From the NCBI GenBank assembly GCA_021232515.1, contig JAJPOQ010000117.1:1-64000 (forward strand): 64,000 nt of DNA. The letters run 5' to 3'. The stretch's first letter is position 1. Every line of letters starts with the position of its first letter. Positions 6,956-26,068 of the stretch are shown here, piece after piece. The notes beneath the pieces are model-generated. The model had not been told where the DNA came from. It searched no databases and saw nothing but the letters and a program-made list of their open reading frames with translations. Position numbers and translations under genes: made by a program. Source of the DNA: Lentisphaeraceae bacterium (GTDB taxonomy: Bacteria; Verrucomicrobiota; Lentisphaeria; Lentisphaerales; Lentisphaeraceae).

Positions 6956-7045
6956 ATCAGCCATTTTTCCAATTAATTGTGTTACTTGCTAAAAGGGCAG
7001 GTTTTTGATATATTTGATAAAAATTTCAAATCTTTTAAAAGTTTT

Positions 7046-7624
7046 ATGAATCAATCTACGAGAAGAACATTAATCGAAAGGGTCACTAACTCAGCTGACG
7101 AGAGTTCTTGGGACGAGTTTGTGAATGTTTACCAGCGCTATGTCCTAGGTTTTATGCTTAAGATGGGCATCAACTTTCATGAAGCTGAAGACCTCACTCA
7201 AAAAGTTATGGTTAAACTTTGGAAAAAGCTTCCTGAGTTTGAGTACCGCCCCGGAAGTTGTCGCTTTCGCAGTTGGTTAGCAATTATCAGTCGTAGCCTT
7301 ATTCGTGACCATCGAAACCTTAAGCAAAATAAGCTTAATAGCCAAATGAGCGATGAAGAAGTACCTGATGTTGAAATAACTGCAGAAATAGAAACTATAA
7401 GTCTCAATGAGTGGAAAGAGTTCATCTCGAAACTTGCTTGGGAGAGAATCTCAAAAAGATTTAATCAACTAGCTCTAGATGTCTTTCTACAATCATCTCA
7501 AAAAGAGATTGCCGACATTGCGCAGGACTTAGGTCTGGCAGAAAACACTGTCTATGTTTACCGAAAACGAGTCGAAACTGCTCTTAAAAAAGAGATCCAT
7601 AACTTAAATTATGAGCTTGGTTGA
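7046..7624 (+). CDS. ECF-type RNA polymerase sigma factor
   Basis: About 192 residues. Region 2 includes EAEDLTQKVMVKLWKKLPEF and FRSWLAIISRSLIRDH. The region 4 helix-turn-helix reads EIADIAQDLGLAENTVYVYRKRV. I chose the ATG at 7046 because the resulting N-terminus (NQSTRRTLIERV) aligns with the two other ECF factors in the window (TRMTLIQRV, TRKTLLQRA); the frame is open further upstream to 6977. It converges with the kinase ending at 7626, one base apart, so it is not in the usual sigma-then-kinase operon. No anti-sigma factor is adjacent. Confidence 0.88.
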   Translation: MNQSTRRTLIERVTNSADESSWDEFVNVYQRYVLGFMLKMGINFHEAEDLTQKVMVKLWKKLPEFEYRPGSCRFRSWLAIISRSLIRDHRNLKQNKLNSQMSDEEVPDVEITAEIETISLNEWKEFISKLAWERISKRFNQLALDVFLQSSQKEIADIAQDLGLAENTVYVYRKRVETALKKEIHNLNYELG

Positions 7625-7625
7625 A

Positions 7626-9548: not shown

Positions 9549-9613
9549 GTTCTAATTCTGTTTTACTCTAAAAGGGAAGACTTAAAAAGTTTTGAACAAT
9601 TCTACGTTTTTTT

Positions 9614-10195
9614 CTACTCTAAATCATTAACTAGTAATACAATCTCGCGAGTTACTACAGCCTTAACTCTCTTATTGTAAACGTAAACAGAACTTTCAGA
9701 CACTTCGTACTTTTGGGCAATTGCATCTACTGTCTGACCATTTTGAAATGCTAAGTAGATATCGACGACTTTATCAGAAAAGCTTTCTCTTACTTTCTCT
9801 ATAGCAAGTTTTACGATGTAAGTTTGCCACTCTTTTTCGATTATTTCATCTAACTCAGCTTCTTCCGGCCCAAGTATTTCCTCGTTTACCTCAACATCGT
9901 TTTGTTTTTTTTTCTCACGCCCAAAAAAGGTATAGATCTGATTTCGACTAACAGTGGTTAACCAAGTACGAAACTTACACTTTTCTGGATTGTACTCAAA
10001 GTTCTCAATACTCTTCCAAACTCGTAAAAGGATGTCCTGACACAAGTCATCTATATGAGGTAAAGGAACTCCTGTTTTATATGCGATGGCCTTGATATAG
10101 GGTTCATACCAACGAGCAAACTCCTCCCACGATTTATCGTCGAGTCGATTCTTCACTCTTTGTATGAGCGTCATGCGTGTTGAGTTGATGTCCAT
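9614..10195 (-). CDS. ECF-type RNA polymerase sigma factor (kinase-paired)
   Basis: About 193 residues. Region 2 contains HIDDLCQDILLRVWKSIENF and CKFRTWLTTVSRNQIY. Region 4 contains the helix-turn-helix TVDAIAQKYEVSESSVYVYNKRV. I placed the start at 10195 (MDINSTRMTL) rather than the farther upstream in-frame 10240 because the other ECF factors here begin at this point. It is the first gene of a two-gene unit with the kinase at 7626. The lack of an anti-sigma gene and the kinase partner suggest control by phosphorylation. Confidence 0.88.
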   Translation of the reverse strand: MDINSTRMTLIQRVKNRLDDKSWEEFARWYEPYIKAIAYKTGVPLPHIDDLCQDILLRVWKSIENFEYNPEKCKFRTWLTTVSRNQIYTFFGREKKKQNDVEVNEEILGPEEAELDEIIEKEWQTYIVKLAIEKVRESFSDKVVDIYLAFQNGQTVDAIAQKYEVSESSVYVYNKRVKAVVTREIVLLVNDLE

Positions 10196-10309
10196 GAGGC
10201 CAATAATATGGCAATCATAGATAAATCGCAAGTCTCTCAAAAAATATTCCGAAAAGTGTAAGATTTTTTCAGAAAGCCTAGTTAAACAATTAAAATCTGG
10301 AATCTTTTT

Positions 10310-12241
10310 ATGAAAAAATCACTTTTAACTGGGCTGTTATTAGCGACCTCTGGTCAAGCAAAAGAGCTTACCTTGAAGTCTGAAGTCACTCCTTTCTTAA
10401 ACAAATACTGCATCGAATGTCACGGTGGTAAAAAAGTTAAAGGCAAACTCGATCTCACAAAAATAAAAAACCAAAAAGACCTTCTCAAAAACTATGAGGT
10501 CTTTGAGTCCGCGTTAGATCTTATTCACGAAAAAGAAATGCCCCCAGACGATGAGCTTCAACCAAGTAAAAAAGAAGTCGCTCTATATGAAAACTGGTAC
10601 AAAAAGACTTTTATACAAAATGTAAAAGCTCAAGCCGGACCTGCTAAGCCAAGACGTCTTTCTGTAAATGAATATAAAAACACTCTCCGCGATCTTCTTG
10701 GTTTTGACCTAAATATAAATTTTGCTGAAGCTGAAGAGACCGTTATGGAAAAGTCTTTAGTCAAGAAAATTATGCCTCTTGACCCTCCTGGAAAGAGTGG
10801 CTTTCAAAACGATACTCATGACACTCCGCTAACATCTGTACTCTGGGGTAAGTATGCATTTATCTCTGAAACTGCAGTAAGTAACCTTTTCCAAAAGAAA
10901 AATAGATCGCACTTAGAAAAGTACTCTGGAACAATCACAAAGAATAACTTCACTAAAAGTCATGCCGAAAAGCTTATTAAGAACTTTGCTCCTATGGCTT
11001 TTAGAAGACACATGCCAACAAGTGAGATCCAAAAAACTCTTAGTCGTATTGATAGCGAAGATGTTATTGAATCCACCAAATTTGAGCTCAAGGCAATGCT
11101 CATGTCACCAAGATTCCTTTTCCGAGGTCACATGGTCAAAACCCAATCAGGAAAGCAACAAAAAGTCGATGACTATGAAATAGCCGAAAGACTATCCTAT
11201 TTCATCTGGGGATCTATGCCTGATAAAAAACTCCTATCGCTAGCTTATCGAAAGAAACTTAATTCACCAGAAATCCTTAAAAAGGAAATAAATAGAATGG
11301 CTAGTGACGACAAATCAAAAAACCTAGCCGAGGACTTTGCTTACCAATGGTTTGCTCTCAATGAGATCGAACATATAGGCGGTCGCTTCCCTGTTACAAA
11401 GTCGATGATGACTCAACCTGTCTATTTCTTTAATTATCTGATCAAAGAAAATCGCCCTCTCATGGAATTAATCGATTCCAAAGTCAGCTTCGCTAACCCA
11501 CTCCTCCGTAGTTACTACGACAAGAAAGATCAAAAAGGAATCAAAGCCTATCGCAAAGGAAAAGGCATAGAAATAGAGTACGTACCTCATTCTAGAATAA
11601 CTTTAGAAAACACTACAACTCGTGGTGGCATATTAACCATGCCGGGTATACTCGCAATGAATGCCTCAAAAGGACGTACAAGTCCTGTTTTAAGAGGAAC
11701 TTGGGTACTGGAAAGAATTCTTGGCGATCATCTTCCAGAACCACCAAATGATGTCGGTGTGGTGGCGGAAAACAAGAAAGGTCAAAACTTGTCATTTCGC
11801 GAGCGGTTTGAAATACATAAAAGCAATAAAACCTGTGCTGTATGTCACGATCGCATCGACCCTCTTGGTTTTGCTCTCGAGTCTTATGACTCTATGGGCA
11901 AGTTCCGCAGTCACATGGGTGGCATAAAAAACAGAAAGACAAAAGTTACTTCGCCTAAGTCTCCAATAGATGCTTCAGGTGAATTGTACGGCGAAAAATT
12001 CACCGACTTCACAGGCCTCAAGAAACTTCTTAAGACTAAGCATAAAGAGACAATTATTCGAAATATTGTCCGCAAAACTATGTCTTATGCTCTCTGTAGA
12101 AAATTAGAAGTTTACGATAAAGAGGCAGTCGAAAAAATAGTTTCAAAAATGATCAAAGAAAATGGTACTTACCAAGACCTTATATTTACCATTTCTCAAA
12201 GTATGCCATTTCAAGAAGTTTACCTTGCCAAGGAGAATTAA
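10310..12241 (+). CDS. DUF1592-type cytochrome c-like secreted protein
   Basis: 643 residues with a short signal peptide (about 1-17). A planctomycete-type cytochrome c motif YCIECHGG (residues 34-41) comes first. The multi-domain order DUF1587-DUF1592-DUF1588-DUF1585 follows, with a second haem-like motif CAVCHDRIDPLGFALE in the DUF1588 region and a helical C-terminus. Probably periplasmic or envelope-associated and redox-active. It is 2 bases upstream of a DUF1552 Tat protein, the usual partner. Function is not established for this pair in any organism that I know of. Confidence 0.88.
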   Translation: MKKSLLTGLLLATSGQAKELTLKSEVTPFLNKYCIECHGGKKVKGKLDLTKIKNQKDLLKNYEVFESALDLIHEKEMPPDDELQPSKKEVALYENWYKKTFIQNVKAQAGPAKPRRLSVNEYKNTLRDLLGFDLNINFAEAEETVMEKSLVKKIMPLDPPGKSGFQNDTHDTPLTSVLWGKYAFISETAVSNLFQKKNRSHLEKYSGTITKNNFTKSHAEKLIKNFAPMAFRRHMPTSEIQKTLSRIDSEDVIESTKFELKAMLMSPRFLFRGHMVKTQSGKQQKVDDYEIAERLSYFIWGSMPDKKLLSLAYRKKLNSPEILKKEINRMASDDKSKNLAEDFAYQWFALNEIEHIGGRFPVTKSMMTQPVYFFNYLIKENRPLMELIDSKVSFANPLLRSYYDKKDQKGIKAYRKGKGIEIEYVPHSRITLENTTTRGGILTMPGILAMNASKGRTSPVLRGTWVLERILGDHLPEPPNDVGVVAENKKGQNLSFRERFEIHKSNKTCAVCHDRIDPLGFALESYDSMGKFRSHMGGIKNRKTKVTSPKSPIDASGELYGEKFTDFTGLKKLLKTKHKETIIRNIVRKTMSYALCRKLEVYDKEAVEKIVSKMIKENGTYQDLIFTISQSMPFQEVYLAKEN

Positions 12242-12243
12242 GA

Positions 12244-13830
12244 ATGAGTTACTCAATAGATAGAAGAAGTTTCCTCAGAGGTGCTGGAGCCGCTATGCCA
12301 TTGCCTTTCCTCAATATGATGAAGGCCTCTGCAAAAAGTAAAAATGACGACCAGAGCCCATTGAGATTTGTAAGTTTATTTAAACCAAATGGTGTTCACC
12401 CGCCGTCTTGGAATGTCACAGGAGGAAATCAAAAGGAGTATCGCCTGGCTCCTCTTATGCAGCCATTTGCAAAACATAAAAAAGATCTCCTCATCTTCGA
12501 CAATATGGGTGACTTTGGTTTTTCTGCTCACCAACACGCCACTAGACGCTTTATGTCCGGTCACCACCAAAATACAAAAAGTGCTTCTATGGACCAACTT
12601 ATTGCCGATAAAATAGGCAAGAAGACTCCGGTTCGGTCACTAGAGCTTACAACTGAAGGTCTCTTTGTTAACCAAATCGGTTGCAGCTACATTTCTTACG
12701 ATGCTAAAGGCAAAGCTATTCCAAGAAATAGTGACCCTCAGATAGTTTTTGATCAACTCTTTAGAAACCCTATGAGTCACCCAAAAAAGAAAGCTGAGAT
12801 GTCTTCTCTTCTAGACCGTGTTCGCGATGATGCTAAAACACTAGAACGCAAAGCTGGACACCAAGATAAAGATACACTTGATCAGTACTTCACCGCAGTA
12901 AGAGAAACTGAAAAAAGACTGCAAAATATGAATAACCGATCCACTTCAAAAGTAGACTTTTCTACTCTTAAGCGACCTGAAGTCAGCGGTAACTTAGACG
13001 ATCAAGTTGAAACTATGTTGGACCTCATGGCGCTCGCATTGTGGACTGACTCAACTCGCTGTATCTCATACATGCTCGGTAACAGCAACAGTCGTATGGT
13101 CTTTGATTTCCTAGGAATAACCGAACAACACCACTACCTTTCGCACTTCTTTAGAAACTTTAGTCGAGAGAATATCGACGCTCTTCTAAAAATCAGTAAG
13201 TGGCATATGGAAAAGTTCGACTCACTACTGACTAAAATGAAGTCATATAAAGATGTAAATGGCCAAACAGTCCTCGACAATAGTATCGTCCTTTACGGTT
13301 CTGGCATGGGCCACAGTGACAACCATACTGCAACCAGAATCCCGGCGATCATTGCGGGTAAAGGTGGTGGTTTGATCGAAACTGGTAGGTACCTACGCTA
13401 CAACGGAAACCAAAGACTTGGAAAGCTTCATCTAGCAATTCTTCAAAAGTTTGGTGTCGATGTAAACTCCTTTGGCGGTGAATCACAAGCCCTCAACGGT
13501 CTTAGCGGTGAGCGTATAGATGAACACCGCGAAAAAGCCTTTAGCCGTTGGGTGAAAGTCAATAGTGACGAGATCGTCGTCCAGTCTAGACTTCGTTTAT
13601 CTGATGACCTAAACGAAGCAAAAGTTTTCTACCTTGATTTACCTGACGGATCTAGCGTGAAACTTGAAATTCAGTTTAGAGACTTCCATGACTTCAACCT
13701 CGCCTACTACTGTGGTGAGGCCATAAAGCTTACCGGAAAAGGTTCGAATAAAAACGGTCAACTGACTATCACTAAAGTCACCGAGCTCAAGTCGCTATTT
13801 GGTAAAAAAGCAGGGTCGACTGGAGGGTAA
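12244..13830 (+). CDS. DUF1552 Tat-exported protein
   Basis: 528 residues beginning with a twin-arginine signal RRSFLRGAG (7-15). The DUF1552 core follows with MDQLIADKIG, LALWTDSTRC, the LYGSGMGHSDNH motif and PAIIAGKGGG, resembling an alkaline-phosphatase-like fold. After the normal family end at about 430 there is an extra C-terminal region of about 95 residues, beta-rich and absent from the 422-residue paralogue at 13881. It is co-transcribed with the DUF1592 gene before it and probably exported folded. Reaction unknown. Confidence 0.87.
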   Translation: MSYSIDRRSFLRGAGAAMPLPFLNMMKASAKSKNDDQSPLRFVSLFKPNGVHPPSWNVTGGNQKEYRLAPLMQPFAKHKKDLLIFDNMGDFGFSAHQHATRRFMSGHHQNTKSASMDQLIADKIGKKTPVRSLELTTEGLFVNQIGCSYISYDAKGKAIPRNSDPQIVFDQLFRNPMSHPKKKAEMSSLLDRVRDDAKTLERKAGHQDKDTLDQYFTAVRETEKRLQNMNNRSTSKVDFSTLKRPEVSGNLDDQVETMLDLMALALWTDSTRCISYMLGNSNSRMVFDFLGITEQHHYLSHFFRNFSRENIDALLKISKWHMEKFDSLLTKMKSYKDVNGQTVLDNSIVLYGSGMGHSDNHTATRIPAIIAGKGGGLIETGRYLRYNGNQRLGKLHLAILQKFGVDVNSFGGESQALNGLSGERIDEHREKAFSRWVKVNSDEIVVQSRLRLSDDLNEAKVFYLDLPDGSSVKLEIQFRDFHDFNLAYYCGEAIKLTGKGSNKNGQLTITKVTELKSLFGKKAGSTGG

Positions 13831-13880: not shown

Positions 13881-15137
13881 TTAAACTTCTAGGGCTTTGC
13901 GACTTGTGCCAAAGCTATCTGCCTTAACACCGAACCAGTGCAACATAGAGAGGTAAAGGTTACAAAGCGGCGTCGCTATCTTATCTTTATCGTACATGTT
14001 TTTATGCTCACCATGTTCCAAACCACCTCCAGCAAGTATGACTGGTAGGTTGCGGTTAGAGTGAGCACTACCGTTGCCCATACCTGCACCATTTAAGACG
14101 ATGGTGTTATCAAGTAAGTTTGACTCTCCATCTTTGATGTTCTTCAACTTATTCAAGAAGTTATTGAATAGTGTCATGTGATAAGCTTCGATCTTAGCCA
14201 ACTGAGCCAAGCGACTCTTAGAATGACCATGGTGAGATAGTAAATGACAACCTTCTGTGATGTCATCTCCCAAGTCGCTATAGACGTTGTTTGTCACTGG
14301 TAATTGCAATGATGCAACACGAGTGGAATCTGTCTGCAGCGCTAAAGCGATGATGTCATAGTAAAGCGGAAATAGTTCTTTAATGTTTGATGGAACTGTA
14401 CCGATGCCTTTGACCTTTGGCTTAGCACTCATGACCCACTTATTTTGAGCCTGAATTTTCTTTTCAGTTTCACGTAGGCTACTTAGGAACTCGCTCATTT
14501 TGACTTTGTCGTCTTTATTCATCTTACGACTTAGGTCTTTACTTTGACCTAAGACTGTGTCGATTACACTGCTATTTTCTTCTAGGATCTTTTTTGCTCT
14601 CTTACGAGCAGTTAAAGTCTCTTCGGTAAATAACTGACTGAAGACTAGGTCAAGCTTTTCTTGCATAGGCACTGAGACTCCAGCACGAGTCCATGAAGTA
14701 CGGTCATAACGACCAACTCCACCAGGAAGTGCTAAGTGAAGTGAAGAAAAGCGTGTATTAAAGCCAACATGTTCAGCAGCTTTCATATCAACGGATATAT
14801 TGCCTTCCTTGTACTTTTTCGCATCTTCGATATGGACACCAGTCAAGAAAGCATGTTCGGCATAATGACCGCCAGTAACTCCATGCTCTAGACCAGAGTA
14901 TACGGTAAATTTATCTTTATTCTCAGCAAGCGGCAGCAAAGTCTTTGACAGTTTATAGTCTTTACCAACTTCTTTTGGAAAGAAGGCTCTAGGCTCCCAA
15001 CCTAAACACTGGTGTACACAAACCATACGACGTTTTGCGTCTGTAGTTTTTTGACCTGCCGCGTGAGCCAATGAAGGCATAAATGGCAAAGCAATAGAAA
15101 TGCCAGAGGCTTTTAAAAAGTTTCGTCTATTCATCAT
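13881..15137 (-). CDS. DUF1552 Tat-exported protein
   Basis: About 418 residues with a twin-arginine signal NRRNFLKASG and an Ala-rich cleavage region. The DUF1552 core has HAFLTGVHIED, ALALQTDSTRVASLQ, LNGAGMGNGSAHSN and PVILAGGG. I placed the start at the ATG at 15137 because GGAGG lies 5 bases upstream; a GTG at 15149 would put the Shine-Dalgarno inside the gene. It is 14 bases after the DUF1592 gene and shares its ECF-like promoter. It lacks the C-terminal extension of the paralogue at 12244. Confidence 0.88.
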   Translation of the reverse strand: MMNRRNFLKASGISIALPFMPSLAHAAGQKTTDAKRRMVCVHQCLGWEPRAFFPKEVGKDYKLSKTLLPLAENKDKFTVYSGLEHGVTGGHYAEHAFLTGVHIEDAKKYKEGNISVDMKAAEHVGFNTRFSSLHLALPGGVGRYDRTSWTRAGVSVPMQEKLDLVFSQLFTEETLTARKRAKKILEENSSVIDTVLGQSKDLSRKMNKDDKVKMSEFLSSLRETEKKIQAQNKWVMSAKPKVKGIGTVPSNIKELFPLYYDIIALALQTDSTRVASLQLPVTNNVYSDLGDDITEGCHLLSHHGHSKSRLAQLAKIEAYHMTLFNNFLNKLKNIKDGESNLLDNTIVLNGAGMGNGSAHSNRNLPVILAGGGLEHGEHKNMYDKDKIATPLCNLYLSMLHWFGVKADSFGTSRKALEV

Positions 15138-15151
15138 CTTTTCCTCCACTC

Positions 15152-17599
15152 CTATCGCGACTTAAAGGTGTTACTTTTTAGAATTGTAATCAACAGGTCT
15201 CTAAAACCTTGTTTTGTTTCGAGTCCTTTAGCGATCTTATCTATCTCGCCTCGTTCCAAGTAAGTCATATCTCGACCAGTTGCATAACTCAGTAACTTCT
15301 CAGTAAGACACTTGGCAAATAATGGTTTGTTCTCCATCAAGAACTTTTTATACTGAATGATATTCTCAATCTTAGTTCCGTTTGAAGTCACCGTTGCAGC
15401 TTCAACAACAAGCTTCTTTTTGCCGCCGTAGTCTGTTCTAAATTTACCAACTGCATCAAAGTTTTCTAAAGGCATACCGAGGGGATCGATTTTTTTGTGG
15501 CAGCTAGAACAACTCTCCATTTCGCGGTGTTTTTTAAGCTGCTCAACTAAAGTCGTAGCGCCACGTATATCTGGCTCAAGAGGTTCGACATCTGCCGGCG
15601 GTGCTGGTGGAGGTGTTCCTAGTAAATTTTCCATAACCCATATACCGCGAGTTACTGGCGATGTATCAACACCATTTGAAGTTGCGGCTAAAACACTTGC
15701 TTGAGTTATAAGACCACCGCGAATAGAGTTTGGCGGTAACTTCAGAGCCTTAAAACCTTTGCCTTTGAAGCCTTTCAAACCATAGTGCTTGGCCATGGCG
15801 CTATTCACCATAACATAGTCACTGTCGACGCAGTTATAGATGCTTTTGTTATTTCTCAGAAGATCAATTAAAAACTGGTTCGTCTCTTCTGTTATGTACT
15901 TACTCGCACCACTTTTGTAGAAGCTCTTAAATTTGTTTTTATCTGGCTGCATCACCAAGATTTTACCAAAGTTTAACCACTGAAAAGCAAAATCTTTCAA
16001 CATCTTATTTGTCTTTGGAGAATCAACCATGGTCTTGATTAATTGATCATAAGATTTTTCATCTGTTAACTTACCATTCACCGCCATCTTCATCAGATCT
16101 TCACTCGGTGCTGTTCCCCAGAGGAAATATGAAAGTCTCGATGCCAGACCATAATCGTTCAGCATGCCGTCATTTTGATAATGGTACAGAAAACCAGGTG
16201 AAACTAAGATCGCTTTCATACCGATCTTAAGAGCATTTAAGTCACCAGCTTTTAAGTTTGCTTTTGCTAGTTCGATGATTTTACTAATTTCTTGTTTTTG
16301 TACCGGACGACGCCAAGCTTTAGATGCAAACTTAACAAGATGACTTTCTAAGTACTTCGCATCTACTTTCTCTGGGAGTTTCCCATCAAAAGCCTTCTTA
16401 GTAATCTTTGGTGGCCACTCTTTAAAAAATGGACCTTCGATCTCCATGCCATAAACTCGAATTCTAGAGCCTCGGTAGTACATGTCAGTTACTTTCCAAC
16501 GACCATGCTTTAAGTAAACTTCATTTCGACCTTTCACGCCGAAACGCTTTTTAGCTATTTCAGTTATCTTACCTGAGTAAGCTCCTTTGACGCCGTTTAG
16601 CCAGATCATATAAGGAGCAAAACCTTTTTTTAGGTGAGCCTCAACTTCATAGTCCATTTTGTCATCACCAATGACTAGTGTCTTCAAGTGATAGTCTGAA
16701 ATGTTGTCTGCTGAGATCTGCCCATACTCTTTTGAAGTAGCGTATACTCCAAGCTTAAAATCGTCTTTAGGGTTTGGCGTAGTGTGAAGCTTCCAGTCAG
16801 GATGGTTTCTGTTTAAAACCTGAGCTTTTATGCGAATTTTATAGGTACCTTCAATTGGTGCTTCAAAACCTTTTTCAACCCAGCATCTCGAAGCCATCTT
16901 CATACTACCAATAAGATCTGCATAAGATTTACCTTCTTTGTCTTTGTGATAAACCGGAACATCACGGCCACCCCAAAGGTTTTCTGGTGTTAAAGTCCAC
17001 TTTCTTGGTTTTGGAACCTTTCTAGGTAAGACAACATTGTCCAAAACTTTATCGGCCACTTTAAGGTACTTCTCATAAAGGAAACTTGTGGTCTTCAGTT
17101 CTTTGGCGTTGTTGTTAAATCCATGCTCAATTGAGTCTTCTGGTAAACCATAGGCCATGAGGAAGTTTGGATCGTTGAACTCAAAAAGGTCGTAGAGAGT
17201 ATTACTAAATTCTTTGTGAGATAAGCGACGCATGACAGTACCAGTTTTGCTGGCGAGCTTTTCTTCGCGGATCTTGTCCATTTTAGTTGTTATCCAAGCA
17301 ACTATCTCTTCTTGTTTTTCAGAAGTTGGAAATGGTTTCTTAGGTGGCATTTCGCCAAGGTGAAGTTGATCGAGCATATCCTGCCAAAGAAAAGCCGACT
17401 CTCTATCTGAGAAGTCTGAGGAGATCATATCATAACGACGATCACCTTTTTGCTTTTTCTCCCCGTGACAACGTATACAGTACTCATCTAAAAATGGTTT
17501 AACGGTTGTTTCAAAGTACTTATCCTCAGCCTGCACAGCTGGAACTAAAAATAACAAAGCCAAAAGGTTAAGTAGGCTTACTGATTTTCTTTGATTCAT
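15152..17599 (-). CDS. DUF1592-type cytochrome c-like secreted protein
   Basis: About 815 residues with a signal peptide (SLLNLLALLFLVPAVQA). The N-terminal haem motif is YCIRCHGE, followed by DUF1587. A beta-rich insert (about 190-400) is absent from the shorter paralogue at 10310 and may bind carbohydrate, judging only by composition. Then come DUF1592, DUF1588 (SCSSCHKKIDPLGMPLENFD) and DUF1585. The start at 17599 has GAGGA 5 bases upstream; an in-frame GTG lies at 17614. It is the first gene of a pair with DUF1552 and is driven by the ECF-like element at 17664-17696. Confidence 0.87.
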   Translation of the reverse strand: MNQRKSVSLLNLLALLFLVPAVQAEDKYFETTVKPFLDEYCIRCHGEKKQKGDRRYDMISSDFSDRESAFLWQDMLDQLHLGEMPPKKPFPTSEKQEEIVAWITTKMDKIREEKLASKTGTVMRRLSHKEFSNTLYDLFEFNDPNFLMAYGLPEDSIEHGFNNNAKELKTTSFLYEKYLKVADKVLDNVVLPRKVPKPRKWTLTPENLWGGRDVPVYHKDKEGKSYADLIGSMKMASRCWVEKGFEAPIEGTYKIRIKAQVLNRNHPDWKLHTTPNPKDDFKLGVYATSKEYGQISADNISDYHLKTLVIGDDKMDYEVEAHLKKGFAPYMIWLNGVKGAYSGKITEIAKKRFGVKGRNEVYLKHGRWKVTDMYYRGSRIRVYGMEIEGPFFKEWPPKITKKAFDGKLPEKVDAKYLESHLVKFASKAWRRPVQKQEISKIIELAKANLKAGDLNALKIGMKAILVSPGFLYHYQNDGMLNDYGLASRLSYFLWGTAPSEDLMKMAVNGKLTDEKSYDQLIKTMVDSPKTNKMLKDFAFQWLNFGKILVMQPDKNKFKSFYKSGASKYITEETNQFLIDLLRNNKSIYNCVDSDYVMVNSAMAKHYGLKGFKGKGFKALKLPPNSIRGGLITQASVLAATSNGVDTSPVTRGIWVMENLLGTPPPAPPADVEPLEPDIRGATTLVEQLKKHREMESCSSCHKKIDPLGMPLENFDAVGKFRTDYGGKKKLVVEAATVTSNGTKIENIIQYKKFLMENKPLFAKCLTEKLLSYATGRDMTYLERGEIDKIAKGLETKQGFRDLLITILKSNTFKSR

Positions 17600-17663
17600 T
17601 CTTTTCCTCGACACAAATTTTTAAGGCTGTCGTTCTTCACAACAACCAACTCTCTCTATTTGC

Positions 17664-17696
17664 TTATACACACGAGGACATCTCAAGAAAAAGGCC
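17664..17696 (-). promoter_or_regulatory. ECF-like promoter element upstream of the DUF1592-DUF1552 pair
   Basis: On the minus strand: TGGCCTT, 16 bp, CGTGTGTATA. Same two blocks and same spacing as four elements before pseudopilin genes. The -35-like block lies in the 3' arm of the upstream gene's terminator hairpin. Confidence 0.6.
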
Positions 17697-17806: not shown

Positions 17807-19384
17807 TTAATCGATAAGATCAAGCTCCTCTTCAGGCATAGCGCCCATCTTCTTTTTCTGATCTTTCTGAGTAAGAATTGAAACACTTTTGTTTGAAGGC
17901 AGGTAACGGTAATAAACCGTTAACATGAGTGCAGAGAGAGTTGTTGCATAAACTCGCTCTTCTAACTGGCCGTTTATAATCCTAGCTACACCATCATGTA
18001 AACTCGGATAGTCCCAGTAGCCTTCTTCACTTTGGTTTGTCGTAAGCTCTTTTTGAAACTTACGATTCCAAGGTTTCCAGTTTTTACCGCCAGACTGAAA
18101 CATAACTTGAGTCGCATAGTACCAGCCATATAGAGAAAACTCTTTGGGTGGGTTATTCCAGCTCAACTGTTTCAGGTCTTCAGTCGCAATTAGACGAATA
18201 TCTTCTTTGATCTCGTCGCAATTCCCTTCGCCAAATAACTGTAAACAAAGTGCACCAACAGCTCTCATTGACTGCTGTCTCTTTTTAGGTGAGTTACCAA
18301 AGTTATTATTTGTATACTCATAGACAAAAGAGTTCGTTGCACCGCCCATGCTTTTAAGACAATCAATCGACTTCTGTATAGCTCCCGGAAGCTTCTCAAG
18401 TTCACAGCCAGCACCATAAGCAGCTTTCATGGCTTGGTAGTTCCAACCTGCTAAAGACAAGTCCTGACGTCTTTCTGACTTGGCATAACCATAGTCAAAT
18501 GAACCGCCAGCTTGCTGATTATCTAAAATAAGTGACATACACTCATTCATTGCCGGTCCGATCATACTTACACCAGTCATAGCATAAGCTTCAGATAAGG
18601 CATATGCTTTGATTGCGTGGTTATAAGAACCATGTTTTTTACCGCGATCAATTTTATCATTTATTAAATAGTCTATGGCTTTTTTAACCGTTGGCCCAAA
18701 TGATTTAGAAAGGTGTGTTTCACCATGTGCCAAGAAAGTTAGTAGACCTAGACCGGTCAGTCCAGCCTGATTTTTCGCACCCCATGAACCGTCAGGTTTC
18801 TGAACTTTTTTCAACCACCAAAGAGCTTTTAGAAGTGAAGCTTGCCCTGCTTTAGTACCACCAAAGTTTGACACTGCACTTGCTCGACCAGCAGCAGAAC
18901 GGCCACCATAGACATTTGGCGAAGCAAAAGCTGATGGGCTAACAACTATATCTGAAACAGCTTCTACAGTTGAATCGTCATCTGTTGAAGGAGCTTCATC
19001 GTTGGTATCTTCTAAAGCAGCATCGTTGGTATCAACATTTTCTATAGCCACAGTCGTCAAGACAGGATTCACAACATTATCTTCTTGTTCAACAGGCTCT
19101 GGCTCTTCCACCGGTGGTGGTTCTTCCAACTTTATCTCTTCTACCTGTTCCATCTTCACAACTATTTCTGGAACTTCATCTTTATACTTATCGGTAATCA
19201 TTATTGCTAAAACAACGATTAAAACAAGGTGAAATACTGTTGATATGATAGGCCCTATCAAAGTTTCTTTGAGACGCTTTTTACGGTATTCTTCTTGGAT
19301 TTCTAAAATATCATCAGTCGTCAGTTCTTCAGACTCATGATCTTCTAAATAGTCATACTCTTCTTCATCTGGATAGTTATCCAT
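17807..19384 (-). CDS. Membrane-anchored alpha/alpha-toroid protein with TonB-like N-terminus
   Basis: About 525 residues. An acidic cytoplasmic start is followed by one membrane helix (about 45-63) and a Pro/Glu-rich stretch (EEPPPVEEPEPVEQ) like a TonB or biopolymer-transport linker. A helical-repeat domain follows (about 180-490) with KPDGSWGAKNQAGLTGLGLL and LDNQQAGGSFDYG motifs of prenyltransferase/squalene-cyclase-like toroids. The protein ends EEELDLID, a tail shared with the protein at 29915. The start at 19384 is preferred because GGAAAA lies 7 bases upstream; a TTG at 19396 is possible. Likely periplasmic; function unknown. Confidence 0.75.
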   Translation of the reverse strand: MDNYPDEEEYDYLEDHESEELTTDDILEIQEEYRKKRLKETLIGPIISTVFHLVLIVVLAIMITDKYKDEVPEIVVKMEQVEEIKLEEPPPVEEPEPVEQEDNVVNPVLTTVAIENVDTNDAALEDTNDEAPSTDDDSTVEAVSDIVVSPSAFASPNVYGGRSAAGRASAVSNFGGTKAGQASLLKALWWLKKVQKPDGSWGAKNQAGLTGLGLLTFLAHGETHLSKSFGPTVKKAIDYLINDKIDRGKKHGSYNHAIKAYALSEAYAMTGVSMIGPAMNECMSLILDNQQAGGSFDYGYAKSERRQDLSLAGWNYQAMKAAYGAGCELEKLPGAIQKSIDCLKSMGGATNSFVYEYTNNNFGNSPKKRQQSMRAVGALCLQLFGEGNCDEIKEDIRLIATEDLKQLSWNNPPKEFSLYGWYYATQVMFQSGGKNWKPWNRKFQKELTTNQSEEGYWDYPSLHDGVARIINGQLEERVYATTLSALMLTVYYRYLPSNKSVSILTQKDQKKKMGAMPEEELDLID

Positions 19385-19396
19385 ATAATTTTCCAA

Positions 19397-19776: not shown

Positions 19777-19798
19777 TTACCACCAAAAAACTCGGCCG
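19766..19798 (-). promoter_or_regulatory. Weak candidate ECF-like element before the toroid gene
   Basis: On the minus strand CGGCCGA, 16 bp, CGTGTGTCAA. The GGCC and CGTGTG cores and the spacing agree with the five stronger sites, but both blocks are imperfect and it overlaps the 3' end of a pseudopilin gene. It would give a leader of about 370 bases. Confidence 0.25.
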
Positions 19799-20454
19799 CT
19801 GCCAACATTTAGCCGCTCACGCCACGTCGTAAAGCTTTTTAACTTGGCATGTCCATCGACATAAGATGCACTTTGGTCCAAACGCCCATAACCATAGTGA
19901 TTCGTCTTTTCGCCGTATTGAGTTATCCAGCTAAACTTCCCATTTAACTTGACTGTATCGTCAATGATCAGCTTATCATCAGATGGATTTTCAACCTCAG
20001 ATATACGATCAACCCATTCTTGATTGAGAATTGAACGACTAGTGATATTTCCATTCGGTCTCAAGAATGTGAAGGAGTAATTAGCAACTCGGTAAACTGC
20101 GTTGTGTACCCAGGCTGCTTCACGGTTATAAACTTCTTTAACTGGACAATAGTAATTTTCTTGAGGTAACATCAATTCATCTGTATTTCTTTTAGTGATA
20201 TTATTAGGAAAATTCCCATTATCTGAAGAAACCACATCCCAAAAATAACGCCCGTTATAGTTGGCCGCATTTTTCAAAAACGCTTGATTCAATTGAGCGG
20301 TGTTATTCAAGCAAAGAGCTTTCTTGGCTTGAAGACGTGCCGAACTTAAAGATGGCAATAAGATTGACAACAGTATGCCAATTATCGCAACAACAACTAA
20401 GAGCTCAATCAAAGAGAAGCTTTTTCGAATATGTAAGTTTTTCAGATTCGTCAC
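19777..20454 (-). CDS. Type II pseudopilin, array member 1
   Basis: 225 residues. Prepilin motif [17 protein letters not shown] after a short leader, then KKALCLNNTAQLNQAF, PSDDKLIIDDTVK, SASYVDGHAKL and the C-terminal tail VFWW. Start is a GTG. Only 15 bases separate it from the pseudopilin at 20470, so the two share a transcript. It is closely related to the members at 21289, 22009 and 22749 across the whole length. Confidence 0.87.
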   Translation of the reverse strand: MTNLKNLHIRKSFSLIELLVVVAIIGILLSILLPSLSSARLQAKKALCLNNTAQLNQAFLKNAANYNGRYFWDVVSSDNGNFPNNITKRNTDELMLPQENYYCPVKEVYNREAAWVHNAVYRVANYSFTFLRPNGNITSRSILNQEWVDRISEVENPSDDKLIIDDTVKLNGKFSWITQYGEKTNHYGYGRLDQSASYVDGHAKLKSFTTWRERLNVGSGRVFWW

Positions 20455-20469: not shown

Positions 20470-21183
20470 TTAGTCATCTTCTAGTTCTTGGTACATCCTT
20501 AACAATCGATTATTCCCAGGTGTCGACGAACTAGCAGTTTTCATCTCACTTCCAGGTCTAACCCACTTTACTGAGCCTTCTCCAAGAAGACGATTGAAAC
20601 CCGTGTTCTTATGAGGCCAGTAAATGCTTACCGTACCATTTGTCCAATTATTCACACCGACAAAGTCAGTATAAGTCACTTTATCGGCATAGTTTATAAG
20701 CTTCCAATCAGTCTCAACTTCTATGCCACCTGTACCATCGGAAATAGCTCTGGAAGTAAAAGAAGAACGCCACTTTATGCCACCCCAAGTATTTCCTGTA
20801 CCATTGTGCTTCAACAAGGCATTTTCTTGTTGAGAATGAGCCGGACAGTAAAATATCTCTTCAGTCTTTAAGTACTCAGCTTCATAAAGAAGGCCAATAC
20901 CGCGATACCTACCGTTATAAAACATCCAGTAAGAAGCAAAGTTGGAGTTCCCCGTTCTAAACCATGTCGGCAAGTTTCCGTTGTCATCTTTACTAAATAA
21001 ACTGGAGCCAACGCCCACTTGCTTGAGGTTACTTGCACACACCGCTCGATAAGCCATGTCTCTTGAGTTTCTCAACGACGGCAATAACAATGACGCCAAT
21101 ATTCCTATGATTGCGACAACGACTAAAAGCTCTATCAAAGTAAAACTTCGCCGGCCGACTCCCTTACACCTAAACATTCTCAT
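20470..21183 (-). CDS. Type II pseudopilin, array member 2 (divergent)
   Basis: About 237 residues. Prepilin motif [26 protein letters not shown], then [19 protein letters not shown] typical of the H-x-DG pseudopilins. The C-terminus has [14 protein letters not shown] instead of the DGHA motif and lacks the FWW tail, so this is a different subtype inserted among the paralogues. I prefer the ATG at 21183; a TTG at 21195 is in frame. First gene of a two-gene unit with array member 1 and preceded by an ECF-like element. Confidence 0.83.
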
Positions 21184-21234
21184 ATACACATCCAATTATT
21201 CAACAACACAAAGCCTTCCAATACTCACACACCC

Positions 21235-21265
21235 TATACACGGAAAGTTGCATACAATAAGGACA
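21235..21265 (-). promoter_or_regulatory. ECF-like promoter element before array members 2 and 1
   Basis: On the minus strand TGTCCTT, 16 bp, CGTGTATA. The -10-like block matches the other sites exactly and the -35-like block differs at one base. It lies just after the stop of array member 3. Confidence 0.6.
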
Positions 21266-21288: not shown

Positions 21289-21942
21289 TTACCACCAGAA
21301 AACTTTATTACCGCCGACATCTAAACGTGCATTCCACGTTTGTAGACTGGTGATTTTTGCATGGCCATCGACAAAAGAAGAGCTTTGATCTAAGCGCCCA
21401 TAACTGTAATGATTTGTCTTTTGCCCATAGATCGTTATCCAATCAAACGCCCCATTTCTCTTCACTGTGTCGTCGATGATAAACTTATCTTCGGCTGGAT
21501 TTTCAACTAGAGAAAACTTTTCGACCCAATTCTGATTCACCAAGCTTCGTTGAGAAATACCACCGTTGGGCCTTTTAAAGGTAAATGAGTAGTTCACGAC
21601 TCTGTAACTAGCATTGTGCTCCCAAGCGCCGTCTGTATCGTAACCAAGCTTTACTGGACAATAATAGATTTCTTTGGGAAGATTTATTTCTTCGGCATTT
21701 CGACGGGTAATAGTGTTTGGAAATTGACCATTATCACCAGTTTGAGTATCCCAAAATGGGCGATCATTGTGATTTTTAGAATTTGCTAAAAAAGCGCGAT
21801 TCATTTGAGCAGTTTGATTTAAACAAACGGCTTTCTTAGCTTTAGTTCTAGCAGCTTTCAATGAAGGTAATAGTAAGGATAACAAGATCCCAAGAACAGC
21901 AAGAACTACCAAGAGTTCTATGAGAGTAAACTTTTTCAACAC
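21289..21942 (-). CDS. Type II pseudopilin, array member 3
   Basis: 217 residues. Prepilin motif [18 protein letters not shown] with a very short leader, KKAVCLNQTAQMNRAF, PAEDKFIIDDTVK, SSSFVDGHAKI and tail KVFWW. The start is GTG with GAGG 5 bases upstream. It has its own ECF-like promoter at 21965-21995. Tandem paralogue of members 1, 4 and 5. Confidence 0.88.
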   Translation of the reverse strand: MLKKFTLIELLVVLAVLGILLSLLLPSLKAARTKAKKAVCLNQTAQMNRAFLANSKNHNDRPFWDTQTGDNGQFPNTITRRNAEEINLPKEIYYCPVKLGYDTDGAWEHNASYRVVNYSFTFKRPNGGISQRSLVNQNWVEKFSLVENPAEDKFIIDDTVKRNGAFDWITIYGQKTNHYSYGRLDQSSSFVDGHAKITSLQTWNARLDVGGNKVFWW

Positions 21943-21964: not shown

Positions 21965-21995
21965 TATACACGATAGATAAGTAACACTAAGGCCA
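21965..21995 (-). promoter_or_regulatory. ECF-like promoter element before array member 3
   Basis: On the minus strand TGGCCTT, 16 bp, CGTGTATA: both blocks match the consensus of the set. The -10-like block ends 23 bases before the start codon. Confidence 0.65.
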
Positions 21996-22008: not shown

Positions 22009-22665
22009 TTACCACCAAAAGACTTTATTGCCGCCAACATCCATACGGGCGGTCCAACTCTTGTAAGAGGTCAATTTTGCATGACCGTCCACATAAGCAG
22101 AGTTTTGGTTTAGCCTGCCATAACCATAGTGGTTGGTCTTCTCGCCGTAGATAGTTATCCATGTAAAATTTGATCCTAGTTTAACCGTATCGTCGATCAC
22201 AAACTTATCATCGGAAGGATTTTCAACTGCCCCAAATCTATCTACCCATTCTTGCCCAGTTATCGTGCGGTTAGATATTTGACCATTGGGTCGTAAAAAA
22301 GTAAATGAGTAATTCGCAACTCGAAAGCTGTCATTAAATACCCAAGCCCCATCAGTGTCATAACCTTGCTTAACTGGACAGTAGTAAATATCTTGCGGAA
22401 GATCGAGTTCAGTAGTATTTCTTCGAGTTATATTATTTGGAAAGTTGCCATTGTTCCCTGTTACTTCGTCCCAAACTGGGCGATCGTCATGGTTCATTGA
22501 GTTTCCAGTAAAAGCTTTATGAAGTTGAGATGTATTGCTCAAACACACAGCTTTTATCGCTTTAATTCTAGCTTGGCTAAGTGACGGCAAAAGCATCGAA
22601 GCAAGAATGCCAATTATTGCGACTACAACCAACAGCTCTATCAAGGTGAATTTTTTATTGCTCAC
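22009..22665 (-). CDS. Type II pseudopilin, array member 4
   Basis: About 218 residues. Prepilin motif [62 protein letters not shown] and tail GGNKVFWW. I chose a GTG at 22665 (leader [11 protein letters not shown]) because AGGGGAG lies 5 bases upstream; the frame is open from an ATG at 22689. Own ECF-like promoter. Tandem paralogue of members 1, 3 and 5. Confidence 0.87.
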   Translation of the reverse strand: MSNKKFTLIELLVVVAIIGILASMLLPSLSQARIKAIKAVCLSNTSQLHKAFTGNSMNHDDRPVWDEVTGNNGNFPNNITRRNTTELDLPQDIYYCPVKQGYDTDGAWVFNDSFRVANYSFTFLRPNGQISNRTITGQEWVDRFGAVENPSDDKFVIDDTVKLGSNFTWITIYGEKTNHYGYGRLNQNSAYVDGHAKLTSYKSWTARMDVGGNKVFWW

Positions 22666-22703
22666 TGAGACTCCCCTCTTAGTAATCATTTATACTTACA
22701 GTC

Positions 22704-22735
22704 ATACACACGTGAGGGGTTTCGTAAAAAGGCCA
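22704..22735 (-). promoter_or_regulatory. ECF-like promoter element before array member 4
   Basis: On the minus strand TGGCCTT, 16 bp, CGTGTGTAT. It begins 14 bases after the stop of array member 5. Same spacing as the other sites; the -10-like block is the TGTAT variant also seen at 17664. Confidence 0.6.
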
Positions 22736-22748
22736 CGCTGATAAAAGA

Positions 22749-23417
22749 TTACCACCAAAAAGCTTTGCTACCGCCAATTGCTATGCGCGATGTCCAGTTT
22801 TTATAAGAAGTTACTTTTGCATGTCCATCGACATAAGCTGCATTTTGATCAAGCTTGCCATAACCGTAGTGGTTTGTCTTCTCTCCATAGATAGTAACCC
22901 AACTAAAGTCACTGCCATTTTTAACCGTATCGTCAATGACAAACTTATCATCGGAAGGGTTTTCAACTGTACTGAATCTGTCGACCCACTCTTGGTTCGA
23001 GATGATCTTCGTACTGATCTCACCATTTGGCCTTGAGTAGGTAAATGTATAATTTGCCACACGAAAGTTCGGGTTATAGATCCAAGCGGAGTCTACGTTA
23101 TAGACTGACTTTACTGGGCAATAGTAAGATTCTTTCGGCATGTCTAAGTTTGTTGTTGTACGGCGTGTGATGTTATTTGGGTATGGACCACTATCTGAAG
23201 TTTTGGTATCCCAGGCTGGACGGCCATCATCATCTATGGCATTTCCCATAAGAGCTTTATGGAGTTGGGAAGTATTGTTTAAGCAAACAGCCTTTATTGC
23301 TTTAGTCCTAGCACCTTTTAAAGACGGCAAAAGAATAGAAGCAAGAATGCCAATTATCGCTACAACAACCAACAGTTCTATCATAGTAAACGTTCTATAA
23401 GCCACAAAAGTCTCCAT
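22749..23417 (-). CDS. Type II pseudopilin, array member 5
   Basis: 222 residues. Prepilin motif [61 protein letters not shown] and tail GGSKAFWW. A GTG at 23405 with GGAG upstream is an alternative start giving a shorter leader. The ECF-like promoter at 23440-23470 is 23 bases from the ATG. It is divergent from the sigma-kinase pair at 23619. Confidence 0.87.
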   Translation of the reverse strand: METFVAYRTFTMIELLVVVAIIGILASILLPSLKGARTKAIKAVCLNNTSQLHKALMGNAIDDDGRPAWDTKTSDSGPYPNNITRRTTTNLDMPKESYYCPVKSVYNVDSAWIYNPNFRVANYTFTYSRPNGEISTKIISNQEWVDRFSTVENPSDDKFVIDDTVKNGSDFSWVTIYGEKTNHYGYGKLDQNAAYVDGHAKVTSYKNWTSRIAIGGSKAFWW

Positions 23418-23439: not shown

Positions 23440-23470
23440 TATACACGTAAGTAATTTTTCGAGAAGGCCA
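23440..23470 (-). promoter_or_regulatory. ECF-like promoter element before array member 5
   Basis: On the minus strand TGGCCTT, 16 bp, CGTGTATA, a full match to the consensus. It lies in the divergent gap shared with the ECF sigma gene at 23619. Confidence 0.65.
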
Positions 23471-23618: not shown

Positions 23619-24206
23619 ATGACCGAACGCTGGAACACAAGAAAAACTCTTCTACAACGAGCTCAAGATAAAAACGACTCTGAGGCTTGGAATGATTTTG
23701 TTTTTTACTACCGCGACTTTCTTAAAATGGTTTTAGTTAAAATGAACTTCAATGCAACTGAGTCTGAAGATGTCATCCAAGAGATCCTGCTCAAACTTTG
23801 GAAAGCTCTGCCAAACTTTAGTACAGAAGGCAAAGCAAAGTTTAGAACTTGGCTCAGTCGCTTAATCCGCAATAGCGCAATCGACTATTTGAGAAAGCAC
23901 CATAAGACTGAGTCCACAGAGTTTGACGAAAAGAGCTTTGATCTTGCGGAAGAGCCTGACGTTTCGCAGTACATCCAAGATGAATGGGAAGTCCATATCG
24001 TTGCTCTAGCGTTAAATGAAATAGCTCCTCTTTTTTCAGAAAAAGCTATGATAGTTTTTAAAATGGCCATGAAAAGCAAGTCAACTGCTGACATAGCTAA
24101 AGAACTGGACATCACTGAAAATTCAGCTCTAAAACTCAAGAATCGAGTTAAGCATAGAATGGTTCAAGAGATAAACTCTCTAAGGGAAAAGCTTGAGTAC
24201 TTCTGA
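23619..24206 (+). CDS. ECF-type RNA polymerase sigma factor (kinase-paired)
   Basis: 195 residues. Region 2: ESEDVIQEILLKLWKALPNF and AKFRTWLSRLIRNSAIDYL. Region 4 helix-turn-helix: TADIAKELDITENSALKLKNRV. The stop overlaps the start of the kinase gene (TGATG), so the two are translationally coupled. It is transcribed away from the pseudopilin array, whose promoters share an ECF-like element, and is the best candidate for the cognate sigma factor. No anti-sigma gene is nearby. Confidence 0.9.
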   Translation: MTERWNTRKTLLQRAQDKNDSEAWNDFVFYYRDFLKMVLVKMNFNATESEDVIQEILLKLWKALPNFSTEGKAKFRTWLSRLIRNSAIDYLRKHHKTESTEFDEKSFDLAEEPDVSQYIQDEWEVHIVALALNEIAPLFSEKAMIVFKMAMKSKSTADIAKELDITENSALKLKNRVKHRMVQEINSLREKLEYF

Positions 24207-26068
24207 TGGATGACGAACTAAGAGATCTTGCCCGTGGCATGAAGCACTTGTACGAGGAGTCCAAAACTATCCCTCATGCAAATGCTCCTATCTACAATGA
24301 ATTGGGAGACTTAGTTAAACAGTACTCAAACAAGACTTTCCTAAATGAAGGTGGTATGAAAACCATCTATAAAGTCTTTGACAAAAAGACAGATCGGTAT
24401 GTCGCCATGGCTGAACTTCATGACGATGCTTCTGATGAACTATATGAGATATTTTTAAGAGAGGCACGACTCACTGCTAAACTCGAACATCCAAACATCA
24501 TCTCTGTTCATGACATAGGTCTTTCTGAAGACAAACCATTTTTCACAATGGATTTGAAGGTCGGCGACTCCCTCCGAGATATACTCCGAAAGTTAGCTGA
24601 GCGCGATGAAGAGTATCAGAAAAACTACCCTTTAAACGTTCTTCTCGAAATCTTTAATAAGATCTGCGACGCCATGGACTACGCTCACTCTCGCGGCGTA
24701 ATTCACCTAGACCTAAAACCAGATAATATACAGATCGGTCTTCACGGCGAAGTCTTAGTTTGTGATTGGGGTTTAGCCAAGATTGTCACTGAACCTGAGT
24801 TCTACAGCGGAGAAAATGAGGTGAAACTCAGCCCTGACTTACTCTACAGCATGACTCAAAATGGTGAGCTCAAAGGCACTCCAGGTTATATGGCTCCTGA
24901 GCAGGCTTCTCTCGATGGTGTAAAAACAGAAAGCACCGACATCTATGCTCTTGGTTGTTTACTCTTTTCCATTTTGACTTATCAATCAACTGTAAATGGT
25001 TCGATTGAGGAAGTCCTTAAAGCAACCAAACTTGGTAACTTGCGCCTACCCTCGAAAGCCATTCCCGAAAAGTTCCTGCCGCAAACTCTGGATCATATAT
25101 TTAAGAAAGCGACATCTCTCAAAGCCGAAGAGCGCTACCCCTCTGTAAAAGCTTTAAAACGCGACATCTCTAACTTTCTCGCGGGTTACTCTACCTCAGT
25201 CGATAAAGGTTATTTCTTTAGGGAAGCCGCTTTATTTTTCAAGCGAAATCAAACTGCTTGTTTAACTGGCTTTAGTCTTATCTTCATCATGTTCGTAGTG
25301 ACTTTACTCTTTGTCTTTAATCTTAATCGAAGAATCACCGAAGCCGATACTGCAAAGATAATTGCTAACCACTTATCTCAAAAGTTTCTAGGTGATCAAC
25401 AAGCTGCTAAAAATCGCTACTCACAACTTTCCCGAGACTTTGTCTTAGAGACAGATAAGTTCTTAAACTTATCCGTTTACTCTAAACCTCATGAGTCGAT
25501 CAAGGTCGCGCTTCACACCATAGATGAGTACCTCAAAGAAAACCCTGAGAATGAATTAGCTCTCGATTTCCGCTACAATTGTCTACTCATCAAACAAGAC
25601 TTTGATGAGATAATAAATAGCGCCAGCCGCACTTCGAAAATTTATCGATTGGCAAAGCGTTATGCAGAAATTCGCGGTAGCCAAAAGTTTCTCTCAGAAG
25701 ATAATTTGGCCTTACTTTTTAAAGAAGCTCATTTATTCAATGTTGAGTTATCTACTCTGGAAAGAATGCTGTGTTATCAAAATGCCGCGCAACCTCGAAA
25801 AACACTAGATGGGGCCATTTTACGACTGCTATGTATTGCCAATAAAGACAGCAAAAAAGACTTTTATAAATTCAGTTCTAAAACTCAGACCTTATCCATC
25901 AGCAGTCCAAACTTTCACACAGTTTCAAACTTAGGAACTAACGCATCCAACTTGCCTTTAACGAGATTTCTTAAACTAGAAAACATCATCCTTACCGGCA
26001 CAAAAATCACGACTCCTGAACAAATAGAAAATCTACCCAAAGGGATAAAAGTCGTTTTAAAGCCTTAG
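24206..26068 (+). CDS. Transmembrane Ser/Thr protein kinase, WNK-like lysine
   Basis: 620 residues. Kinase domain (about 42-328): GGMKTIYKV loop with Lys52; VAMA with Ala69 at the usual VAIK lysine; HLDLKPDN (167-174, non-RD); DWG (187-189); GTPGYMAPEQ. One membrane helix (about 350-373). A helical, TPR-like extracytoplasmic region and a short leucine-rich tail follow. Shares the architecture of the kinases at 692 and 7626. Overlaps the sigma gene by one base, indicating a functional pair. A role in activating or releasing the sigma factor is inferred. Confidence 0.88.
   Translation: MDDELRDLARGMKHLYEESKTIPHANAPIYNELGDLVKQYSNKTFLNEGGMKTIYKVFDKKTDRYVAMAELHDDASDELYEIFLREARLTAKLEHPNIISVHDIGLSEDKPFFTMDLKVGDSLRDILRKLAERDEEYQKNYPLNVLLEIFNKICDAMDYAHSRGVIHLDLKPDNIQIGLHGEVLVCDWGLAKIVTEPEFYSGENEVKLSPDLLYSMTQNGELKGTPGYMAPEQASLDGVKTESTDIYALGCLLFSILTYQSTVNGSIEEVLKATKLGNLRLPSKAIPEKFLPQTLDHIFKKATSLKAEERYPSVKALKRDISNFLAGYSTSVDKGYFFREAALFFKRNQTACLTGFSLIFIMFVVTLLFVFNLNRRITEADTAKIIANHLSQKFLGDQQAAKNRYSQLSRDFVLETDKFLNLSVYSKPHESIKVALHTIDEYLKENPENELALDFRYNCLLIKQDFDEIINSASRTSKIYRLAKRYAEIRGSQKFLSEDNLALLFKEAHLFNVELSTLERMLCYQNAAQPRKTLDGAILRLLCIANKDSKKDFYKFSSKTQTLSISSPNFHTVSNLGTNASNLPLTRFLKLENIILTGTKITTPEQIENLPKGIKVVLKP

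Follow-up and report, generated by a model that had tools for sequence, protein, structure and literature searches.

An ECF sigma factor-kinase gene pair in a Lentisphaeraceae bacterium and a candidate private promoter shared by the adjacent pseudopilin and DUF1592-DUF1552 genes

What does an ECF sigma factor control when it is encoded together with a membrane-bound protein kinase, and which promoter does it read? The question is raised by a gene pair at 23619-26068 of a 64,000-nucleotide stretch of DNA from a Lentisphaeraceae bacterium (contig JAJPOQ010000117.1 of assembly GCA_021232515.1, positions 1 to 64,000; here called the window), which lies beside an array of pseudopilin genes. We consider, with a probability of about two in three, that the pair is one of some 40 self-contained modules, in each of which a sigma factor switched by its own kinase reads its own private promoter, with each module insulated from the rest.

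The first gene of the pair (23619..24206, plus strand) encodes an ECF sigma factor of 195 amino acids, recognized by profile and sequence comparison, and the second (24206..26068, plus strand) a Hanks-type Ser/Thr kinase of 620 amino acids with one transmembrane helix, assigned from profile, alignment and an AF2 model. As the initial annotation stated, the genes overlap by one base: the sigma stop codon TGA occupies 24204-24206 and the kinase ATG starts at 24206, giving TGATG. The same annotation was right in placing the pair divergent from the fifth pseudopilin gene, which is on the minus strand and has an exact copy of the promoter at 23440-23469, and in noting the lack of an anti-sigma factor; none was recognized among the ORFs neighbouring the pair. 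A Ser/Thr kinase adjacent to the sigma factor, with no anti-sigma factor, is the arrangement of the STK-linked ECF systems. The sigma factor consists of sigma2 and sigma4 only, within about 200 residues, as in ECF (group 4) factors. In comparisons with Pfam and NCBIfam it matches Sigma70_r2 (PF04542, residues 30-96, 1.2e-17) and, above the cut-off, the sigma70-ECF superfamily TIGR02937 (residues 22-183, 1.3e-20); its score for the NCBIfam subfamily TIGR02989 is below that profile's cut-off. The sigma2.2 motif reads ESED-VIQE, with its acidic residues kept. Thr7 is conserved in 39/39 paralogues, position 10 is Thr or Ser in all 39, and Ser/Thr169 in sigma4 is found in 37 of the 39; the Ser/Thr residues of the linker sequence KTEST are not conserved among them.

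The kinase domain (PF00069, 1.6e-34) has the HxD, DxG, APE and Asn elements of Hanks-type kinases and lacks the beta3 lysine. Ala69 replaces the lysine of VAIK, and a lysine, K52, is found in the sequence GGMK of the glycine-rich loop; lysine at the third loop glycine, with none at beta3, is the arrangement described for the WNK active site (PMC1821047, PMC12599244), a feature that the initial annotation does not mention. HLD169 stands for HRD and DWG187 for DFG. Across 36 aligned kinases the catalytic residues D169, K171, N174, D187 and E232 are invariant, as is K52, and Ala69 is nearly so. The loop lysine is present in 48/48 sigma-paired kinases; all of them lack the VAIK lysine, with alanine nearly always in its place, and usually HLD replaces HRD and DWG replaces DFG. 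Examples in the window lie at 692-2692, 7626-9548 and 24206-26068. Altogether 51 loop-lysine kinases were compared with 73 canonical ones and no mixed states were seen, nor were the two states mixed in the nearest 80 loci among approximately 85,000 genomes. The loop-lysine kinases of those 80 loci belong to Lentisphaeria, Kiritimatiellales/Pontiellaceae and a few other Verrucomicrobiota, and many adjoin a sigma factor of the 23619 family, which is never found beside the standard-lysine kinases of the same 80 loci. In a tree built without the three diagnostic columns the loop-lysine kinases still form one group (51/51), with low support (0.53). By sequence the kinase is closest to bacterial PknB/PknD, and the closest solved kinases are PknB/StkP. 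Because the remaining catalytic residues are invariant, the loop-lysine kinases are read from their sequences as probably active and not as pseudokinases. Eukaryotic WNK kinases with this lysine arrangement are active, and a survey of 2007 regarded WNK as the only functional family of eukaryotic-type protein kinases without the lysine (PMC1821047). The open-access literature that was searched holds no study of bacterial WNK-like kinases or of Lentisphaerae ECF-kinase pairs, which does not prove their absence elsewhere.

Beyond the kinase domain, the AF2 model (pLDDT 84) has a long helix at 349-425 that includes the transmembrane segment and forms a stalk, followed by TPR-like helix pairs at approximately 428-545, predicted to be extracytoplasmic, and short C-terminal strands; the sensor modelled alone reached a pLDDT of 90.7. 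It had been suggested that this part is a paired TPR/LRR sensor. The helix pairs and strands of the model agree with that suggestion in outline, and the family assignment is not borne out: Pfam detected neither TPR nor LRR in the sensor part, and in a Foldseek search TPR proteins were among the top matches, none of them significant. 'TPR/LRR' is thus a fair structural impression from the model and not a proven family.

The window has five sites of the candidate promoter, GGCCTT-N16-CGTGTRTA, each of them on the minus strand and 15-52 nt before a gene. Moving away from the sigma gene, an exact site, GGCCTT-N16-CGTGTATA (23440..23469), lies 22 nt before pseudopilin 5 (22749..23417, minus strand; TIGR02532); GGCCTT-N16-CGTGTGTA (22705..22734) precedes pseudopilin 4 (22009..22689, minus); a second exact site (21965..21994) precedes pseudopilin 3 (21289..21942, minus); and GTCCTT-N16-CGTGTATA (21235..21264) precedes pseudopilin 2 (20470..21195, minus). 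Pseudopilins 2, 3 and 4 were assigned by profile match. Pseudopilin 1 (19777..20454, minus) has no site of its own and lies 15 nt behind pseudopilin 2, with which it likely forms one operon. The fifth site, again GGCCTT-N16-CGTGTGTA (17667..17696), stands before a two-gene operon that encodes a DUF1592/PSCyt1-type protein (15152..17614, minus; PSD2-5, PSCyt1 and PSCyt3 in Pfam) and a DUF1552 (HXXSHH) protein (13881..15149, minus). Between pseudopilin 1 and the DUF1592 gene there is also a 529-aa ORF (17807-19396, minus) with no Pfam match and no motif before it.

Five sites at up to two mismatches compare with 0.23 expected for the window, and none of 100 shuffles reached five. The 5.26-Mb genome holds no sixth site at up to one mismatch, which makes the motif specific to this locus (five in, none out; p=2.8e-8). 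Between sites, identity is 94% and 93% in the two boxes, 30% in the spacer and 26-40% in the flanks; since spacer and flanks have diverged and the boxes are conserved, the repeated boxes are taken to be promoter structure, and simple duplication of the upstream regions was ruled out on the same grounds. An ECF-type promoter is expected to have two boxes with some 16 nt between them, to lie shortly upstream of genes and to recur over a set of units, as it does here. A sigma-70 promoter scan of the region gave fewer sites than shuffled sequence. The promoter nearest to the start of the 23619 sigma gene is approximately 150 bp away, and it is this proximity that leads us to assign the motif to that sigma factor. 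Autoregulation was not seen, the best copy of the motif before the sigma gene itself having four mismatches. The initial annotation's proposal of direct control by this sigma factor holds in so far as a pair with no visible anti-sigma factor adjoins five units that share one ECF-like promoter, unique in the genome; the match of sigma factor to motif itself stays probable.

Motif-bearing genes in relatives that lack the pair would have argued against this proposal. They were sought in 39 relatives, where only scattered single matches and no clusters were found; the motif was also absent from 20 neighbourhoods of the nearest paralogues in relatives, and no orthologue of the 23619 sigma factor above 49% identity was found there. 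Motif and sigma factor are therefore both specific to the window genome among the genomes searched. Their joint absence from relatives fits the expectation, and cannot alone prove that they are linked.

The pair is far from solitary. Close paralogues of the 23619 sigma factor number 39 in this genome and are mostly paired with kinases; genomes of other Lentisphaeraceae have between 5 and 64 matches each. A kinase lies within 150 bp for 49 of the 59 sigma genes examined, and 38 of these 49 are co-directional with it and either overlap it or lie within 10 bp. Divergence of the sigma factors follows that of the kinase domains (r=0.70; null maximum 0.19); the correlation and the adjacency together indicate that sigma-kinase pairs are inherited as units. 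Near the sigma paralogues pseudopilins are enriched 2.4-3.9 fold and DUF1552 genes 2.3-3 fold. Over the whole genome, DUF1552 genes number 62 and pilin-like N-termini at least 150 (of 194 candidates, 150 were scored); most of both lie away from sigma paralogues. Two further paralogues are present in the window, at 6977-7624 and 9614-10240, 13-17 kb from 23619; with a loop-lysine kinase, these two genes (6977-10240) adjoin a second DUF1592-DUF1552 operon (10310-13830). The GGCCTT motif is not found upstream of that operon, and for the two sigma factors no separate promoter motif was detected.

Evidence for other private promoters comes from a de novo search for repeated -35/-10 dyads around each paralogue, with reassigned upstream regions as the null. 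At p<=1e-3 a private motif was obtained for 13 of the 39 loci, against a null mean of 5.6 and a maximum of 11 in 48 shuffles; for most of the 39 none was found. The clearest case is TGTTAAG-N16-CCTTCTA, of which all eight exact copies in the genome lie within about 30 kb (4960-34808) of the 41-kb contig C8, which has one full-length sigma paralogue, inside the promoter cluster. This motif precedes a pseudopilin gene, a sulfatase gene, an FHA-DUF1592 gene followed by a DUF1552 gene, a cytochrome c gene, two more DUF1592-DUF1552 pairs and a ThuA/DUF7133 gene. Similarly, the genome's three exact copies of AGTACAG-N16-CGTTCTA and its only copy with a single mismatch are all on contig C137 (8533-35188), before a DUF1592-DUF1552 operon, two genes of 3-keto-disaccharide hydrolase type and, assigned by eye, a sugar-isomerase-like gene; C137 carries three sigma paralogues, any of which may own this motif. 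A third motif, TGTTAGA-N16-TGTTTTA on C145, is common to a related sigma locus on C137 and has three sites elsewhere, and is best called semi-private. Two further species of the family have an orthologous sigma factor (87% identical), and its loci in the two share CTGTCCC-N15-GACGAA. Because C8 and C137 show other private promoters, the window locus is regarded as one case of a wider design, in which a sigma-kinase pair is combined with a private local promoter; the support for this design is good at a minority of the 39 loci, from which it is extrapolated to the others.

Two further candidates were not retained. TTGTCAG-N17-GGTTTTT on C79 was ruled out as a private promoter, its genome-wide frequency being near that of its reversed control. 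GGTCAGG-N15-CCGTTAC on C82 (43698-48941) was set aside since, of the three genes that follow it, one encodes a different ECF factor (12099 in L093) and another is PSCyt1-like; it looks like the regulon of an autoregulated ECF factor of the non-kinase type.

How might such a module work? The membrane kinase, with its TPR-like periplasmic part, would sense an outside signal, which might be a polysaccharide or fragments of one, and would switch the activity of the co-transcribed sigma factor by phosphorylation, with activation the likelier direction. For EcfP/PknT and EcfK/PknS it is established that the linked kinase phosphorylates the ECF sigma factor directly (PMC8999054, PMC13147305). Candidate phosphorylation sites are T7, position 10, Ser/Thr169 in sigma4 or, by analogy to EcfK, the linker KTEST. 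A switch of the EcfP type, the one activation route that is well proven, was ruled out, the sigma factor retaining the acidic ESED. The active sigma factor would then direct RNA polymerase to GGCCTT-N16-CGTGTRTA, with the four pseudopilin units (five genes) and a single DUF1592-DUF1552 operon as its regulon; the paralogous pairs would work likewise with different promoters, which would insulate the modules from one another. Sulfatases, 3-keto-disaccharide hydrolases and PSCyt genes lie nearby, which suggests a role of the pair in polysaccharide use, and PSCyt genes in Verrucomicrobia sometimes carry carbohydrate-binding modules (PMC5615132).

The kinase might instead be an inhibitor or scaffold, a pseudokinase that tethers the sigma factor at the membrane in the manner of an anti-sigma factor. 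The replaced beta3 lysine (Ala69), HLD in place of HRD and the absence of an anti-sigma gene would all suit such a role, as would the acidic sigma2.2 region, with which the sigma factor could be active by default. We nevertheless think it doubtful: the lysine at the WNK position is invariant, the catalytic Asp, Lys and Asn and the Asp of DWG are invariant in 36/36 kinases, which is unexpected of a dead enzyme, and the eukaryotic WNKs of the same arrangement are active (PMC1821047). We also think it unlikely, rather more so, that a nearby paralogue (6977-7624 or 9614-10240) or some other ECF factor recognizes the promoter and that the adjacent pair has other targets. Three paralogues do lie within 17 kb, and sequence does not fix the boundary of the module, yet the 9614 sigma gene adjoins a DUF1592-DUF1552 operon of its own that has no motif upstream, the nearest promoter is close to the start of 23619, and the only full-length paralogue of C8 sits within its promoter cluster.

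It seems very improbable that the boxes serve as operators or remain from gene duplication, and are not sigma promoters at all. The pseudopilins are tandem paralogues, as duplication would have it, but the contrast of boxes with spacer and flanks, the fixed 16-nt gap, the presence of the same boxes before the unrelated DUF1592 operon and the unrelated genes behind the C8 boxes all speak for promoters. The reading of a kinase-switched sigma factor with its own private promoter is the one we prefer.

On a broader reading, for which we see about even chances, the active receptor kinases with the WNK-like lysine are a clade that evolved in Lentisphaeria and some related PVC bacteria, mostly tied to ECF factors, and the sigma-kinase pairs form some 40-60 largely insulated channels per genome, each with a promoter confined to its own neighbourhood (pseudopilins, DUF1592-DUF1552 genes, sulfatases). 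In role the channels would then resemble the numerous sigma/anti-sigma systems of Bacteroides, the difference being that kinases are used to build them. If it is correct, one genome would supply dozens of naturally insulated sigma-promoter pairs, in which sigma specificity and its evolution could be read by comparing paralogues; the pseudopilins and DUF1592-DUF1552 proteins, abundant in PVC bacteria and so far unexplained, would gain a testable regulatory context; and the WNK-type lysine shift would be shown in a bacterial kinase clade.

Several known systems resemble parts of this arrangement. The STK-linked ECF groups of planctomycetes, ECF59, ECF61, ECF62 and ECF217 (PMC8999054), likewise have an ECF sigma factor beside a Ser/Thr kinase, with no anti-sigma factor, in PVC bacteria, and the acidic sigma2.2 region is kept both here and in STK-linked groups other than ECF43 (PMC8999054). 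The present family, which may belong to one of those four groups, stands apart in having approximately 40-60 paralogues per genome, private local promoters and the WNK-like kinase lysine. A linked transmembrane Hanks-type kinase is also shared with EcfP-PknT of Vibrio and EcfK-PknS of Xanthomonas, both of ECF43. In ECF43, however, STTA or QTTA stands in place of the acidic sigma2.2 motif and activation occurs by phosphorylation of the Thr there (PMC8999054), whereas the 23619 sigma factor has ESED and so falls outside that group; EcfK also has phosphosites in the sigma2-sigma4 linker (PMC13147305), where the Ser/Thr residues of KTEST are not conserved here. As in eukaryotic WNK, the lysine is lost at beta3 and occurs instead at the third glycine position in the Gly-rich loop; unlike WNK, the kinase is closest to PknB/PknD, has HLD and DWG, and is a membrane receptor with a TPR-like sensor, and we infer that the shift is convergent with that of WNK and not homologous in that feature. 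The initial annotation regarded ECF control of genes such as these as new, which is too strong for PSCyt/PSD-type genes: control of one by an ECF sigma factor was proposed earlier for Rhodopirellula baltica RB10049/RB10051 by Studholme (cited in PMC2754498). That proposal, as it is cited there, concerns DUF1549-DUF1553 in place of DUF1592-DUF1552 and mentions neither kinase linkage nor a promoter. What is new relative to the known STK-linked ECF systems is the unusual active site of the kinase together with promoters that are strikingly private.
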